From assembly GCF_010747475.1 (NCBI RefSeq), contig NZ_VSLZ01000007.1, positions 62,001 to 126,000 on the forward strand: 64,000 nucleotides of DNA. The letters are read 5' to 3'. The stretch comes from Halorussus sp. MSC15.2 (GTDB lineage Archaea > Halobacteriota > Halobacteria > Halobacteriales > Haladaptataceae). Below the pieces are notes generated by a model that was given only the letters and a program-made list of their open reading frames with translations, did not search any database and was not told the origin of the DNA. Shown here piece by piece: positions 55,583 to 64,000 of the stretch; the stretch's first letter is position 1; every line of letters begins with the position of its first letter. Both the position numbers and the translations under genes were made by a program.

Positions 55583-57361
55583 TTAGTGTCCGTCGGCGTC
55601 CACCGTCCGGGGGTCGGGGTCGTCGAACACCGCTTCGAGCACCTTCTGCTGGGCCTTCCGGAGGTGGTTGTGGAGCGTGGGCGAGGAGACGTCCATCGAG
55701 GCCGCGAGTTCCTCCGCGGTGCTGCCCCGGGGCCACTCGAAGTACCCGGCGAGGTAGGCGGCCCGGAGGACGGTCCGCTGGCGCTCGGTCACGCGGTCGT
55801 GGACAGTCTGCTGGACGGTGGCCGCGCTCTGAACCGGTTCCTCGACGTCGCGCTTCGACCGGAGATTCGTCGCCGGGAACGCCTCCTCGACGGCCTCCAC
55901 GACTCGCCGGACGTCTACGCGCGACGAGAAGACCCCGGACACGTCCGCGACGCCGCCCTCGACGGAGAGTTCGCGGACGGTGCCGCCGCGCTCGACCAGC
56001 ATCGGCGCGATGGAGTCGCCCGAGACGGCGAACTCGAAGAGCGCGCCGTCGCCGTAGTCGCGGATGAGGCGGGCGTCGTCCACGGCGTCGGCGCTCGACA
56101 CTCGTTCCAACACGCCCCCCACCGCGGCACCGCTCGCAGTGACGAAGTAGAGCAACGAGTGGTCCTCGACCGGGACGACGCCTTCGAGTTCGAACCGACA
56201 CCCGAGGTCGGCCGAGGCCGCCACGAGGAAGACGCCGCGGTCGGTGGTCCGCAGCGAGAGCGCGACGCCGGTGTCGGCCAACAGCAACTGCTTGCGAGCG
56301 ATGGCGGTGACGGTCCGGCCGACGCGCCGTCCGACGTCCGCGACGAACGTCCGGTCGGCCGAGGCGAACGCATCGTGGGCCACGCAGAGCAGTCCGTGGA
56401 CCGTCTCGCTCGACCGGAGCGGCGCGACGGCGACCGAACATCCCGACAGCGCCCCGCTGGATAGCGCCTCGTCGGACAGTCCTCCTCCGGCCGACGCGGT
56501 ATCGATTACTTTCACGTCTGCGATGTTCTCACCGTCCGTGACGCCCGCCGCGTCGAGAACGTCGGCGGGGACGCCGTCGGTGGACTTCGGGGCGGCGCTC
56601 GTCCGGACGTCGCCGCGCTCGTCGCAGACCCACACCGCGTGGTACGCGTCGGACAGACTGTCGCAGACGACCTGCTCGGCGTCCTCGGTCGTGGACGCGT
56701 CCGCGAGCGCCTCGCCGAGTGCGCCGGCGCACGCGAGGAGGTCGTCGCTCCGCGCGTCGGCGGTGCCTCGCTGGCGGGCGAGCGGACGGCGTTCGATTCG
56801 CGGACCTGCGGCCGGTTCCTCGGCGAAAGCCTCCACGACCTCCGCGGTGGTCGGGTCGTCGAGGTACGGCGCGAGACTCTGGAGGCTCTGCCACCCGCCG
56901 ACCGCCTGCACGACTCGGGGGGCGACGCCCTCCTCCACGAGCAGTCGCCACGCGAAGTGCTGGCGGAGGTCCCGGCAGGTCACGTCGCGGAGTCCGTCGG
57001 TCCGGTCGGCCACGTCGCCGACCAGCATCTGAACGCGCCGGGGCGACACGTCCACGAGCGGGTCGTAGCGGTCCACGTCGTTCGCGTTGGCGAACTTCCG
57101 GAGGTCGTGGGCCACCTCCTGTGGCACGTACGCCTCGCGGGTCTCGCCGTCGCCCTCGGGCACCGTGAGCAGGTAGTGAACCTCGCCGCCGCGCTCGCGC
57201 TCGCGGAGGTCCGCCGGGCGAACGCGGGTTATCTCCGAGGCCCGGAGACCGACGCGCCCGGCGAGTGCCACCACGAGGTCCTCGCGGTACGTCTCGGCCC
57301 GCCGCCGGAGGCGCTCGTACTCGGCGGTCGTCAGGAACGCGTCGCGGGATTCGACGGCCAT
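55583..57361 (-). CDS. Bat-type HTH regulator with integrase-like N-terminal domain
   Basis: 592 residues. Residues about 10-185 resemble the catalytic domain of a tyrosine recombinase: GLRASEITRVRPADL (first Arg), CRDLRQHFAWRLLVEEGVAP (second Arg; usual His is Arg), VVQAVGGWQSLQSLAPYLD (Tyr). Then a GAF domain, a bacterio-opsin activator GAF/HTH-associated domain and a C-terminal HTH_10 (RAAYLAGYFEWPRGSTAEEL, PTLHNHLRKAQQKVLE). It is likely a transcription factor using the recombinase fold to bind DNA. Set between two acs genes, so acetate control is likely (inference). Confidence 0.85.
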   Translation of the reverse strand: MAVESRDAFLTTAEYERLRRRAETYREDLVVALAGRVGLRASEITRVRPADLRERERGGEVHYLLTVPEGDGETREAYVPQEVAHDLRKFANANDVDRYDPLVDVSPRRVQMLVGDVADRTDGLRDVTCRDLRQHFAWRLLVEEGVAPRVVQAVGGWQSLQSLAPYLDDPTTAEVVEAFAEEPAAGPRIERRPLARQRGTADARSDDLLACAGALGEALADASTTEDAEQVVCDSLSDAYHAVWVCDERGDVRTSAAPKSTDGVPADVLDAAGVTDGENIADVKVIDTASAGGGLSDEALSSGALSGCSVAVAPLRSSETVHGLLCVAHDAFASADRTFVADVGRRVGRTVTAIARKQLLLADTGVALSLRTTDRGVFLVAASADLGCRFELEGVVPVEDHSLLYFVTASGAAVGGVLERVSSADAVDDARLIRDYGDGALFEFAVSGDSIAPMLVERGGTVRELSVEGGVADVSGVFSSRVDVRRVVEAVEEAFPATNLRSKRDVEEPVQSAATVQQTVHDRVTERQRTVLRAAYLAGYFEWPRGSTAEELAASMDVSSPTLHNHLRKAQQKVLEAVFDDPDPRTVDADGH

Positions 57362-57674: not shown

Positions 57675-59603
57675 CTATCGGTCCAGCAGCGATTCGAGTT
57701 CGCCGACGACTTCCGGGTTCCGGAGCGCGCTCGTGTCGCCGAGGTCCTCCCCGTTGGCGATGGCCGCGAGGTAGCGGCGGACGACCTTCCCCGAGCGCGT
57801 CTTCGGGAGCGACGGCGTGAACGTCACCACGTCGGGTGCCGCGATGGGGCCGATGGCCTCCTCGACCGCCTCGCGGACGCGCCCGCGGAGCGCGTCGTCG
57901 CCGGCCACGTTCGACTCGGGGCTGACGAAGGCGTGTATCTCCGACTTCCGGACGGCGTCGGCGTCCTCGCCCACGACGACGGCGGCCTCCGCGACGCCCC
58001 CGACGCCGACGATGGCCGACTCGATTTCGGTGGTACTCAGCCGCCTGTCTGAGACCTTGAGGACGTCGTCGGCCCGTCCGAGCAGGTGGACGTAGCCGTC
58101 CTCGTCGCGGACGGCGTTGTCGCCCGTGGCGTACTGCCACTCCCCGCCGACGGTGCGCGTCCGGCGCGCGCCCCACCCGGACCCCTCGCACAGCGACCGG
58201 GCCATCCCCGGCCACGGGCGCGTGACGACCAGTTGGCCCGACTCTCCGGGTGGAGCGGATTCGCCCAACTCGTCGACGACGTCCGTCTCGATGCCGGGGA
58301 GGCTCTTCCCGACCGCTCCCGGGCGCATCCGGTCAACGCCGGGGAGCGTCGAGAGGACGATGCCGCCGGTTTCGGTCTGCCACCACGTGTCCACGACCGG
58401 GCACTCGCCGTCGCCGACGTGGTCGCGGTACCAGTGCCACGCCGTCTCGTCGATGGGCTCGCCGACGGTCCCGAGCAGGCGCAGACTCGACAGGTCGTGG
58501 CTCTCTGGGTGCTGTTCGCCCCACTTCATGAACGCCCGGATGGACGTGGGTGCGGTGTAGAACACGTCCACCTCGTTGCGCTCGATTATCTCCCAGAGGC
58601 GGTCGGTCTCTGGGTGGTCGGGCGTCCCCTCGTAGAGGACGGTGGTCGCGCCGAGCGCGAGCGGGCCGTACACCGCGTAGGAGTGGCCCGTAATCCAGCC
58701 CACGTCGGCCGAACACCAGTGGGTGTCCTCGGGACCCAAATCGAGGACGGCGTGGCTGGTCCACGCGACGTGTGTCAGGTAGCCGCCGGTGGTGTGGCGG
58801 ACCAGCGTGGGTTCGCCCGTCGTTCCTGAGGTGTAGATGAGAAAGAGGAGGTCGTCGGTCTCGCGCGAGACGGGTTCGATTTCCGCCCCGGCGTGGTCGG
58901 CCACGAGGTCGGCGTAGGCGCGGTGGTCGCCCGCCGCGGGGTCGTCGTCGAGGCGGTTCACCACGACCTGCTCGACGCCGTGGTCCACCGACAGACAGGC
59001 GTTGTCCGCCCTGCGCTTCAGGTCGAGCGCGGCCCCCCGCCGGTAGTAGCCGTCGCAGGTCACGAGGTACTCCGACTCCGCGCCCTCCAACCGAGTCGCG
59101 AGGGCGTCCGCGGAGAACCCCGCGAAGACGACCGAGTGGGGTGCGCCGATGCGGGCGCACGCCAGCATGGCGACCGGCAGTTCGGGAATCATCGGCAGGT
59201 AGAGCGTGACCACGTCGTCCTCGCCGACGCCCATCTCGCGGAGCGCCGCGGCGAACGCGTTCACCTCGTCGGCGAGTTCCCGGTAACTGTACGTCCGGGT
59301 CTCGCCGAGTTTCCCCTCCCACGAGATGGCGATTTCCTCGCCGCGACCCGCCTCGACGTGGCGGTCCACGCAGTTGTACGAGGCGTTGAGTCGCCCGCCG
59401 GGGAACCAGCGAGTGGTCCCCTCGTCGTCGAGTACCGAGTCGAACGAGCGGCCCCAGTCCAGCAGGTCGGCGGGTCGCTTCCAGCACTCGGGCCACCCCG
59501 CCTCGCGGAACGCTTCGCAGTCGGCCGCCGTGACGTTCGCCGTTTCGACGAACGACTCCGGCGGCGACACCCACTCGCGTTCGTCGGGACTGCTATCGAC
59601 CAT
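57675..59603 (-). CDS. Acetyl-CoA synthetase-like protein, divergent second copy
   Basis: 642 residues. Clear ACS relative: GAPHSVVFAGFSADALATRL, DTWWQTETGGIVLSTLPG, PKTRSGKVVRRYLAA (the catalytic Lys is kept). Departures: the P-loop TSGTTGEPTLVRHTTGG lacks the usual PKG lysine, and the hinge GRADDVLKVSDRRLST differs from GRVDDVLNVSGHRLGT. It carries an insert at ARRTRTVGGEW. May prefer another acid (propionate, for example) or act more slowly. Same strand as the first acs and the regulator. Confidence 0.88.
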   Translation of the reverse strand: MVDSSPDEREWVSPPESFVETANVTAADCEAFREAGWPECWKRPADLLDWGRSFDSVLDDEGTTRWFPGGRLNASYNCVDRHVEAGRGEEIAISWEGKLGETRTYSYRELADEVNAFAAALREMGVGEDDVVTLYLPMIPELPVAMLACARIGAPHSVVFAGFSADALATRLEGAESEYLVTCDGYYRRGAALDLKRRADNACLSVDHGVEQVVVNRLDDDPAAGDHRAYADLVADHAGAEIEPVSRETDDLLFLIYTSGTTGEPTLVRHTTGGYLTHVAWTSHAVLDLGPEDTHWCSADVGWITGHSYAVYGPLALGATTVLYEGTPDHPETDRLWEIIERNEVDVFYTAPTSIRAFMKWGEQHPESHDLSSLRLLGTVGEPIDETAWHWYRDHVGDGECPVVDTWWQTETGGIVLSTLPGVDRMRPGAVGKSLPGIETDVVDELGESAPPGESGQLVVTRPWPGMARSLCEGSGWGARRTRTVGGEWQYATGDNAVRDEDGYVHLLGRADDVLKVSDRRLSTTEIESAIVGVGGVAEAAVVVGEDADAVRKSEIHAFVSPESNVAGDDALRGRVREAVEEAIGPIAAPDVVTFTPSLPKTRSGKVVRRYLAAIANGEDLGDTSALRNPEVVGELESLLDR

Positions 59604-59757
59604 TCGTCTCGGACTTCGCGTAAACAGGGGAAAAATGGTTCGCCTCTCAGCGGTCGGTCGCCCGGAGTCGGGGGTCGATTCGGGGTCGCGCTACCGACAC
59701 GACTACCGACTCGTCACTCCTCCGTCAGTGCCACCTCTCACCGTCGTTCGGTGTCGC

Positions 59758-61360
59758 TCAGCTATCGCTCGCGAGTTGCGCTCCGACGACCGCCGTGACC
59801 TCGTCCTCCGAGAGGTCGCCGAGCCGCGAGTCCTCGCCGAGCGTCGCCATGATGGTCGCCGGTTGCTCGTTGAACGTGAACTCGATGAACATCCCCGAGG
59901 ACGGCCCGTGGCTCTTGCGCTCGGACTCCACGATGGAGTAGGTCGTCAGCTCCTTCATCTTGTTGACGTACGTCTCCTGATGGTACTGGTCGGTGTCGAG
60001 CGCGTCGGTGAGGAACTGGTAGACATGATACCCGGTCGTGCTCCGCGCCGAACTGCTCCCGCTCTGGTTCGCCACCGCGGCCGTCGCGTACAGACAGAGC
60101 TTCTTCTGCGTGCTGATTCCGCGCGTGACCTCCAGCACGCGGTTCCGCTCGACCTTGTCCTGAGCCTTCCGGACGTGGCGCTCGCCGACCCGGTCGGCAC
60201 CCTCCCGCTCGGCGAGGTCGCCCGCGACCCGCATGAGGTCGATGGCCTTCCGGGCGTCGCCGTGGGTCTGGGCGGCGAACGCCGCCGCGAGCGGAATCAC
60301 GTCGTCTTCGAGCACGTCGTCGTAGAAAGCGTCCTTCCGGTGGTGGAGGATTGCGCGCAACTGGTTGGCGTCGTAGTCGTCGAAGTGAACGTCCTCCGGG
60401 GTGAACGAACTCAGCGCCCGACTGCGACCGATTCGAGCATCTTCGTGTCGTTCGTGATGGCGGCGATGGACACCTGCGCGGTGATGTCGTTGCTCGACCC
60501 GGCCCGCGAGAGTTGATAGAGCAGTCGCGAGAACGCCGGTTGGTCCTTGTCGCGCCGACCCACCAGCATGTCCAACTCGTCGAGGACGAACACGACCGTC
60601 TCGTAGTTCTCGTTGACGAGTCGGTAGAGTTCCCGCCACTTCTCCTTGGTCGAGACGCCGTGCTGGGGCACCTCCAGCGGGACGCCCGCCCGGTCGGCGA
60701 CCTTCCGAGCGAGTTCGTAGACCGCCGACCCGAGCGTCCCGATGTCCTGACAGTTCATCTCGATGACGCCGAACCGAATCCCCCGGTTGTCGCAGAGGCG
60801 GCCGATGTTCTCGCACACCGCGTTGATGATGAGCGACTTCCCGGTCCCCGACGGCCCGTAGAGGAAGAGGTTCGGCGGGCGATTGTCGCCGATGGCGACT
60901 CGCAGCATCTTCGTGACCTGTGTGAGTTGCTCGTCGCGCCCGACGATTCGCTCCTCCTCGACGACCTCGTTCGGGTTGAGCAGCGACCGATTCCGGATGA
61001 GCGACTTCTGCTCGTCGAACTCCAGCAGCATCTCCTCTATCGACTTCGAGTCCGGTTCCCCTGACTCCGCGTCGAGTTCCGCGGACGTCGGGTCCCGGTT
61101 CGCGGACTCCGAATCTGCTTCGGAGGCGGCCGCCTTCCGGAGGTCCGACGCACGTCGGCGCTCGGGGTCGCCTCGGAGCGTCGCGTTACCGGGGTCCGAT
61201 ACGGTGTCGTCGCCGACGTTCGATACCGCGTCTTCGCCGGTATCGGATACCGCGTCCTCGCTGTCGTCCGAAACCGCGTCCGCCGGTCGATTCTCGCCCG
61301 GCGGTCCCGCAGAGAAGCGTCCCCGTCTTCGTCGTCTCCAACTGGGGCGTCAGAATCCAT
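59758..61360 (-). pseudogene. orc: Orc1/Cdc6 replication initiator, frameshifted
   Basis: AAA+ core: DEQKSLIRNRSLLNPNEVVE, NLFLYGPSGTGKSLIIN (Walker A), VVFVLDELDMLVGRRD (Walker B), sensor region AAITNDTKMLESV; then the frame breaks near 60424, where one missing base joins it to ALSSFTPEDVHFDDYDANQL and the winged-helix domain (TYVNKMKELTTYSIVESERK). The N-terminus is acidic with an eight-residue repeat (DAVSDDSE...); it lacks a start, but a second missing base near 61308 links it to ATG 61360 (MDSDAPVGDDEDG). It binds the origin repeats next door and loads the MCM helicase. Confidence 0.88.
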
Positions 61361-61398
61361 GCTTCGGCCGTCTCGGTCCGCCCATTAAACGTTGCCGT

Positions 61399-61410
61399 TA
61401 TCGATGTGTT
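61399..61410 (+). repeat. Origin recognition element 1
   Basis: TATCGATGTGTT, followed by TTCCCGGGG. Confidence 0.75.
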
Positions 61411-61538
61411 TTCCCGGGGTACGACTCGGGACGGAATCGGATTCCGGAGACGCGAAACCGAGTATCAGATTTCGTACGGAGTTCCGACGAAGTGTCCGTC
61501 CGGCGTTACTGTGAGCACCTCCGACCCAGAGACACCTC

Positions 61539-61550
61539 TATCGAAGTGTT
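61539..61550 (+). repeat. Origin recognition element 2
   Basis: TATCGAAGTGTT within ACACCTC...CGGAGGGGTCGGGTGGGG. Confidence 0.78.
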
Positions 61551-61761
61551 CGGAGGGGTCGGGTGGGGTCGAGGAGAGACCGTCGCTCGGCGGTGAGAGG
61601 AGACCCTATTTCGCGCTTCACACCCACGTGACGGAATTTCCGGAGGCTGGGCGGTCTCGCGGAACGTTTTATCTCTACTTCTGCTCTCTTCTTCCTCACC
61701 TCCCGTCTCTTCTTTCTTTCACTCTCCTTCCCCCTCTTCGAACGACCCTCACACCCACCTC

Positions 61762-61773
61762 TATCGATGTGTT
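61762..61773 (+). repeat. Origin recognition element 3
   Basis: TATCGATGTGTT, with a second CGATGTGTT right after it. Confidence 0.75.
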
Positions 61774-61921
61774 CGATGTGTTCCGTCTGTTCGACATCGC
61801 CGTCTCGCCGCCTCGATTCTGCTCGGCTCTCACGCGGAAAACCTACGGAAGGCGAGTAGTTGTGGCATCAAGCGTCCACGACTGCTTCGCGATTCCGCCG
61901 CTCCCCGCTCTCCGACGACCG

Positions 61922-61933
61922 AACACATCGATA
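61922..61933 (-). repeat. Origin recognition element 4 (inverted)
   Basis: AACACATCGATA followed by GAGGTGTC. Confidence 0.75.
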
Positions 61934-61965
61934 GAGGTGTCTCCGTCCGTACCGTCCCGTAAGGT

Positions 61966-61977
61966 AACACTTCGATA
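61966..61977 (-). repeat. Origin recognition element 5 (inverted)
   Basis: AACACTTCGATA followed by GAGGTGCCCC. Confidence 0.75.
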
Positions 61978-62011
61978 GAGGTGCCCCTTCCCAGAACCGG
62001 CTTCGCGACGA

Positions 62012-62023
62012 AACACTTCGATA
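62012..62023 (-). repeat. Origin recognition element 6 (inverted)
   Basis: AACACTTCGATA followed by GTGGTGTG. Confidence 0.75.
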
Positions 62024-62112
62024 GTGGTGTGTGACCGCGTTTCAGGCAGGTGTCGCGGCCCGGCGAGTCACGGACGCTCTCACTTCCGAAGTCGCGTCTC
62101 GATATCGGCGAG

Positions 62113-64000
62113 TCACTCCCGCAACCGCTCTTGCCACTCCTGAACTCGATTCATCAACTCGATGGGCGAGGTGTCGCTCAGGTCCGTGTCCTTCACCGCC
62201 TCCATCACGGCCTCCGTTTCCGGGTCCACAGACTCTGCATCGACTGACTCCGAACCCGCTGGTTCGGCACCTGCCGACTCGACCGACGCCTCGTCACGTC
62301 CGCCAGCGCCGTCTCCACCGGCGTCGTCGGCCCCGCGGAACTGCCCCGACCCGAGGTCGAACACGACCTGTTGCGGGTCGCTCTCCCCGCGCTGGCCGCC
62401 TCCGTCGCCGCTCTGGCCGCCGCGCACGTCGATGGCCTCGTCCTCGCGGAGTCGCCGGAGGACGTCGCGCGAGCGCTCGACCACCGGTTCGGGAACCCCT
62501 GCGAGGTCCGCGACGTGAATCCCGTACGAGCGATTCGTCGGCCCGTCCTCGACTGTCCGGAGGAAGGTCACGTCGCCGTCGGACTCGTCCGCCGCGACGT
62601 GGACGTTCTGGACGCCGGGGAGTCGGTCCGCGAGGCTCGTGAGTTCGTGGTAGTGAGTCGCGAACAGGGTCTTCGAACCGACCTGATTGGCGAGGTACTC
62701 CGTGGCGGCCCACGCGATGGAGATGCCGTCGTAGGTCGCGGTGCCTCGGCCAACCTCGTCCAGAATGACCAGCGAGTCCTCGGTGGCCGAATGGAGGATG
62801 TTCGATAGCTCCTGCATCTCGACCATGAACGTCGAGCGACCCTGCGCGAGTTCGTCCAGCGCGCCGACTCGGGTGTAGATGCCGTCCACGACCCGACCTC
62901 CGCGGCGTCGGCCGGGACGAAGCTCCCGATTTGGGCGAGCAGGGTTATCAGCGCGGCCTGTCGCATGTACGTCGATTTGCCCGACATGTTGGGTCCCGTG
63001 ACGACGAGGAAGCGGCGTTCGTCGCGGTCGCCGGTGCGCCCGCGGTCGGACGAGGAGGAAGCACGCGCCCCGTCCATCCGGAGGTCGTTCGGGACGAACT
63101 CGGTCGTACGTTCGACCACGGGGTGGCGGCCCGCGTCGATGCGGAGGTCCCCCGACTCGGTGAGTTCGGGTCGGACCCAGTCGTTCTCGACGGCGTGGAC
63201 CGCGAGGCTGGCGAGGGCGTCGAGTTCCGCGAGGGCGCGCCCCACCGACTGCAGAAGGTCGGCACGCCGGGCGACTCCCTCCCGCAGGTCGCCGAATAGT
63301 TCGTACTCCAGTTCGCCCCGGCGCTCTTCGAGGCGGAATATCTGGCGCTCGCGCTCGTCCAACTCGTCGGTGGTGTAGCGCTCGGAGTTCTTCAGGCTCT
63401 TGAGTCGGTCGTAGCGGTCGGGCACCTTCCCGGTCTCGGAGTTGCCGACCTGAATGTAGTAGCCGTCGGTCTTGTTGCGGTCCACTTGGAGGTGTCCGAT
63501 GCCGGTCTTTCGCTTCTCGCGGTCGTCCAGCGTCGCAAGCCACTCTTTCGCCTCCTCGTGCTGGTCGATAATCTCGTCCAACTCGTCGTCGTAGCCCCGT
63601 CGGAACAGACCGCCCTCCGTGACGGTTCCCGGCGGGTCCTCGGCGAGCGCTCCCAACTCTTCGCGGAGGGCGGCGGCCGCCTCGCGGTCGGGCCGGGCGA
63701 CAACCTCGGCGAGCGGTGAGTCCGATAGCCGGGGGTCGTTAGCGACGGCGTCGGCGACCTCGGGCAGGAGCGCGAGGGTCTCGCGCACCCGCAGGAGGTC
63801 GCGGGCGTCCGCGCTCCCGTGGGCCGCCTTGCTCGCCAGTCGTTCGAGGTCGTAGGCCCCGTCGAGGGTCTCCCGGACCGTCTCGCGGGCCAGTGCGGAG
63901 TCGGCGAACGCGGCCACGCCGTCGGCCCGTTCGCGGAGAGTCGGCAGGTCCTGTCGGGGGCGCTGGAGCCACTCCTTCAGGAGGCGCTTGCCCGGACTCG
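62113..64000 (-). pseudogene. mutS: DNA mismatch repair protein MutS, frameshifted and partial
   Basis: The N-terminal part is beyond the right edge. Visible: SPGKRLLKEWLQRPRQDL (core domain), [17 protein letters not shown], then the ATPase with [20 protein letters not shown] (Walker A), and after a break [40 protein letters not shown] (Walker B) and [12 protein letters not shown]. The frame breaks near 62895 where GGG should be GGGG ([15 protein letters not shown]). The acidic C-terminal tail ends at TGA 62113. It recognises mismatches with MutL. Probably intact in the organism. Confidence 0.92.

Follow-up and report, generated by a model that had tools for sequence, protein, structure and literature searches.

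A putative Orc1/Cdc6-dependent replication origin of a plasmid-associated class in the chromosome of Halorussus

We judge it highly probable, on sequence comparisons, that a region of the Halorussus sp. MSC15.2 genome is an Orc1/Cdc6-dependent replication origin, belonging to a class that is common on haloarchaeal plasmids and is now found in the Halorussus chromosome. The unit occupies 59604..62112 of the window (the whole 64,000-nucleotide stretch of DNA that was analyzed) and consists of an orc1/cdc6 gene and a region of origin recognition boxes (ORBs), together about 2.5 kb, inserted between an acetate--CoA ligase gene and mutS. The initial annotation had proposed a likely replication origin beside orc1/cdc6, and the proposal is supported by the elements themselves, their uniqueness in the genome, their co-occurrence with one type of Orc and their conserved layout. 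The unit is also inserted at alternative chromosomal sites. The features sought in a haloarchaeal orc/cdc6-associated origin were those of Wu et al. 2012 (PMC3528665).

ORB elements

Three direct copies (61399, 61539, 61762) and three inverted copies (61922, 61966, 62012) of TATCGAWGTGTT had been listed in the initial annotation, and all six are exact. The 12-mer TATCGA(A/T)GTGTT is not widespread: its six exact copies in the 4.41 Mb genome all lie at 61399-62023, and a search that tolerates one mismatch still has a chance expectation of 0.14 for the window. Five of the six copies extend, with at most one mismatch, to the full element CACCTCTATCGAWGTGTT; the ACACCTC lead described earlier is thereby borne out, whereas the G run said to accompany it follows only some elements, mainly the one at 61539. 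On the opposite strand the element reads AACACWTCGATAGAGGTG, so that the "lead" is better understood as a weak G-string ending an ORB. The ORB core is AACAC(A/T)TCGATA, and the G-string side, GAGGTGT, faces outwards in both clusters. This weak G-rich end is complementary to the CACCTC lead, and a long G run is absent from most elements.

On the forward strand, F1 (61399..61410) is an exact 12-mer at the orc promoter, F2 (61533..61552, core 61539-61550) is followed by the G run, and F3 (61756..61775, core 61762-61773) matches both the 12-mer and the 20-mer. A seventh, partial copy (GTTCGATGTGTT, 61771..61782, same strand), overlooked in the initial annotation, comes directly after F3 and overlaps it, an arrangement repeated in the Halorussus relatives and at many other loci. 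The reverse-strand elements R1 (61920..61939, core 61922-61933), R2 (61964..61983, core 61966-61977) and R3 (62010..62029, core 62012-62023) likewise match the 12-mer and 20-mer. The inverted ORBs that characterize haloarchaeal orc/cdc6 origins are present here as three plus three convergent elements.

The orc1/cdc6 gene and its promoter

The initiator gene does adjoin the elements, as had been noted: orc1/cdc6 (59758..61360, reverse strand; matches to TIGR02928, AAA_16, Cdc6_lid and Cdc6_C) has its ATG at 61360, and the ORBs span 61399-62023. The protein begins MDSDAPVG... with an acidic N-terminal linker, its conserved part starts from MLLEFDEQ (61031), and the domain order after the linker is AAA+ domain, lid and winged helix. 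The best matches among named relatives are in H. ruber, H. aquaticus and halophilic archaeon LT46. Across its AAA+ and winged-helix domains the protein shares its family with the structures 2qby and 2v1u, which are distant in sequence. We take them to be the Sulfolobus and Aeropyrum Orc1-Cdc6 structures, with different ORBs.

A TATA-like TTTAAT (61384..61389, reverse strand), about 25 bp from the ATG and identical in eight Halorussus genomes, presumably belongs to the orc promoter. F1 lies beside it, 39 bp upstream of the ATG, in all eight genomes, with small variations in some; the start codon is conserved, and the positions of these three features are constant throughout. F1 is a possible autoregulatory site judged by this placement. 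Since the ORB at 61399 abuts the TATA-like box, bound initiator would probably repress orc itself.

The genome has several further orc genes, which we count against the reading as an active origin. These other loci adjoin different inverted elements, in line with the published specificity of Orcs for their ORBs (PMC3528665, PMC3936714).

Distribution of the Orc family and its element

An orthologous Orc is encoded by 8 of the 18 Halorussus genomes. All eight have at least two copies of CTATCGAWGTGTT, and the ten without the Orc have none or one. Among named haloarchaea, 80 loci (Orc at least 67% identical in the best segment), largely plasmid-like, encode the same Orc family, and in nearly all of them the element lies upstream of orc in convergent clusters, typically with 5-7 copies. 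Orcs of the MSC15.2 type (identity of 60% or more) are encoded on 51 PLSDB plasmids, on 27 of which this is the sole Orc-like match. Plasmid pL131 of N. pharaonis is one example, with the plasmid-type Orc as its only Orc-like match and with ORBs present too. Its Orc and that of Halorubrum lacusprofundi pHLAC01 are 75-76% identical to the Halorussus protein, and both plasmids have the same 12-mer ORB in convergent clusters upstream of orc.

The shared Orc and element, and the plasmids on which this Orc stands alone, make a role as plasmid replicator a well-grounded inference and mean that the element class is not new. The ORB sequence goes with its Orc family, as seen in the co-occurrence within Halorussus, at the roughly 80 loci and in the other elements beside other orc genes. 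The suggestion that this might be a distinct origin class matched to its Orc therefore holds with respect to the other Orc/ORB pairs of the genome, from which it differs, but the class is common on haloarchaeal plasmids. A literature search with the letters of the ORB found no haloarchaeal paper.

The Orc tree of a sample of these loci contained two plasmid-type subfamilies (L114-L148 and L078-L113), in which the downstream ORBs are mostly opposite in direction. At about a dozen loci (L117, L119, L120 and L123 among them) an ORB-like 12-mer with at most one mismatch occurs inside the orc coding sequence, at +421 from the conserved start; it may result from codon conservation.

Chromosomal insertion sites

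The unit is found at three places in Halorussus. At site A, between the acetate--CoA ligase gene (acs; 57675..59603, reverse strand) and mutS (3' part in the window, 62113..64000, reverse strand, MutS domains), it is present in MSC15.2, G004 and G015; the species with this arrangement include H. aquaticus and H. ruber, the latter with an intact orc. The same site is empty in G002, G014, G016, G008 and G001, with an acs-mutS gap of only about 75-130 bp. At site B, the unit lies between a gene for a sodium/bile-acid-type transporter and a glycosyltransferase region in G005, G008, G010 and G014; this site is closed in G000, G004 and G007 (about 20 bp between the aligned flanks) and similarly in G002, G015 and G016. 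The third location, site C, is occupied in G007. Two of the three sites, A and B, thus have clean empty counterparts, and the flanking genes change from site to site around a constant unit. In G004, G010 and G014 the contig bearing the unit measures about 3.6 Mb; that of G004 corresponds to the complete chromosome of H. aquaticus.

In the Orc tree the Halorussus proteins form one clade with three parts, matching the three sites. One acquisition followed by moves appears to be the simplest reading of this pattern; the alternative is that an unsampled plasmid lineage of Halorussus integrated more than once. No clear target-site duplication was seen in the site B junctions viewed, and the insert of about 2.5 kb showed neither a transposase nor any other plasmid gene.

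Two further observations concern the surroundings of site A. In G002, acs and mutS occur at both ends of contig C1 (7-11 kb and 3.453-3.458 Mb, the second mutS match being partial), which is probably the untrimmed overlap of a circular chromosome. In the MSC15.2 window, 55583-57361 encodes a BAT/HTH_10 regulator with a phage-integrase-like N-terminal domain.

The region downstream of orc

Most plasmid-like copies have 2-5 further elements 3' of orc, and the Halorussus copies have none; in MSC15.2, orc and acs are 154 bp apart with no ORB between them, the closest sequence there differing at 7 of 18 positions. The pL131 and pHLAC01 copies are on plasmids and carry four more ORBs in a direct array 3' of orc, whereas the Halorussus copies are chromosomal and lack the array. 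Regular direct ORB arrays 3' of orc, with a spacing of 40-53 bp and an iteron-like look, are also seen at L121, L142, L104 and L086. Absence of the array does not track chromosomal location strictly: two downstream elements are retained on a 3.6 Mb scaffold of Haloquadratum walsbyi (L153). Halorubrum sp. Atlit-26R has a second, high-GC (68%) origin copy without a downstream array (L130), possibly another chromosomal capture.

The activity of oriC2 in Haloarcula hispanica is lowered by oriC2D, an ORB-rich stretch with 11 ORBs that lies downstream of cdc6E. This stretch probably acts by binding Cdc6E, and its deletion was possible only together with that of oriC2 (PMC3936714). The MSC15.2 origin differs in having no downstream ORBs, and by analogy the Halorussus unit may be a less restrained form.

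Base composition and the proposed mechanism

The initial annotation had the orientation of the elements switching exactly across an AT-rich part. This is not the case: the interval in which it switches, 61783..61921 between the converging ORB clusters, is 139 bp long and 64% GC. A strongly AT-rich stretch was not found in the GC profile, whose minimum was 45% GC over 60 bp. The tract at 61660..61760, between F2 and F3, is 51% GC and 81% pyrimidine (window mean 66% GC). At haloarchaeal origins an AT-rich element is looked for between the inverted ORBs; the corresponding intervals of the plasmid relatives are moderately GC-poor, and central intervals are mostly 109-200 bp long. The central interval here is without AT-richness, and this counts against an active origin.

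Orc binding, unwinding, autoregulation and actual firing we infer from the arrangement described above. The adjacent Orc1/Cdc6 would bind the ORBs, and the two head-to-head clusters would load initiator around the central stretch. This stretch would open for MCM loading either at the pyrimidine-rich, lower-GC tract, a candidate unwinding element, or in the 139 bp interval as an alternative candidate.

A GC-skew profile, one of the checks proposed initially, was run over 400 kb in G004 and G014. It showed no turn at the site in G004 and, in G014, a weak local maximum 8 kb away. We dropped skew as support for an origin, the signal being weak and inconsistent between the two genomes.

Reading frame of orc and alternative explanations

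The orc frame of MSC15.2 is broken by a one-base deletion at 60425 (CC to C) and by another at 61303, in a G run of the N-terminal linker, both seen by comparison with G004 and both probable errors of sequencing or assembly. The mutS frame is broken by a one-base deletion at 62892, and all three lesions are single-base losses in G/C runs. Intact orc orthologues, 93-94% identical to each other, are present in G005, G007, G008, G010, G014 and G015. Between MSC15.2 and its sister G004, dN/dS is 0.037 for orc and 0.11 for the neighboring acs, and orc is under strong purifying selection. We set the frameshifts aside as evidence for a pseudogene because the deletions are in G/C runs, mutS is hit too and dN/dS is so low; sequencing error is the likelier cause. 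Two more orc loci (C4:372 kb and C6:67 kb) are likewise split in the MSC15.2 assembly. The H. aquaticus (G004) orc (L063) has an in-frame TAG in place of CAG (Gln) in a chromosome deposited as complete, and this TAG, which is either a real nonsense mutation or an error, is why we keep the pseudogene reading open.

The main rival explanation is accordingly a dormant or decaying origin, intact-looking in structure and not normally firing, whether from an inactive initiator or from the dominance of other origins. The broken frame here and the TAG in the nearest relative suggest that the origin might be dormant in this clade. The absence of a skew change in G004 points the same way, and inactive or dormant haloarchaeal origins with conserved structure have been described (PMC3936714, PMC4595724). 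We regard dormancy as a serious possibility without favoring it, given that the lesions are of the kind typical of sequencing error, that orc is so constrained, and that the ORBs and promoter are intact here and the genes are intact in relatives.

Much less can be said for the repeats being operators, with which an Orc homologue mainly regulates its own gene and its neighbors in a region that is no origin. F1 does abut the orc promoter, and an archaeal Orc1-2 is presented as a DNA-damage regulator and no initiator in PMC9738581. Five further elements, however, lie far from that promoter in convergent clusters, the flanking genes vary by insertion site beside an unchanged unit, and this is the sole Orc family on 27 plasmids, which need an initiator; we consider the operator explanation very unlikely. 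It is scarcely credible, finally, that an integrated plasmid left the region behind as an inert relic, or that the repeats cluster by chance. The unit is indeed common to plasmids and inserted at variable sites, but the number and exclusive location of the copies exclude chance, the insert lacks other plasmid genes, and ORBs, promoter and protein are conserved across eight species at three sites under purifying selection.

Relation to known origins and significance

Taken as an Orc1/Cdc6-dependent origin, the Halorussus unit can be likened to oriC2-cdc6E of Haloarcula hispanica, which is chromosomal, is thought to have been acquired by integration and has its own specific Cdc6 and ORBs (PMC3936714). 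The haloarchaeal oriC1 likewise has inverted ORBs with G-strings beside orc/cdc6 (PMC3528665, PMC3936714). It is reported to occur in all haloarchaea in syntenic surroundings, whereas the orc and ORB unit described here is at three sites in fewer than half of the Halorussus genomes. Because gain, loss and disruption of origins in haloarchaeal chromosomes have already been described (PMC4441112), the origin is of a known kind. By our comparisons the Orc/ORB class, too, is known and common on haloarchaeal plasmids, and it appears to have an unusually clear relocation history in Halorussus. What seems to be new is the chromosomal location of the unit in this genus, at three alternative sites, two with empty counterparts, and without the 3' array.

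Plasmid integration is believed to have given archaeal chromosomes their additional origins, and to our knowledge clean before-and-after comparisons of such integration are uncommon. Within this one genus the same orc and ORB unit can be compared across three locations in the chromosome, and for two of these, sister species show the matching site empty. We suggest, as a speculation that we would not ourselves rate as probable, that the pair is a movable chromosomal origin, domesticated once from a plasmid-like source with loss of its downstream titration array and then moved among at least three positions, so that congeners would fire the same origin from different places. Halorussus bears in this way on two questions: whether moving an origin shifts the start of replication, and whether loss of the array permits chromosomal life.
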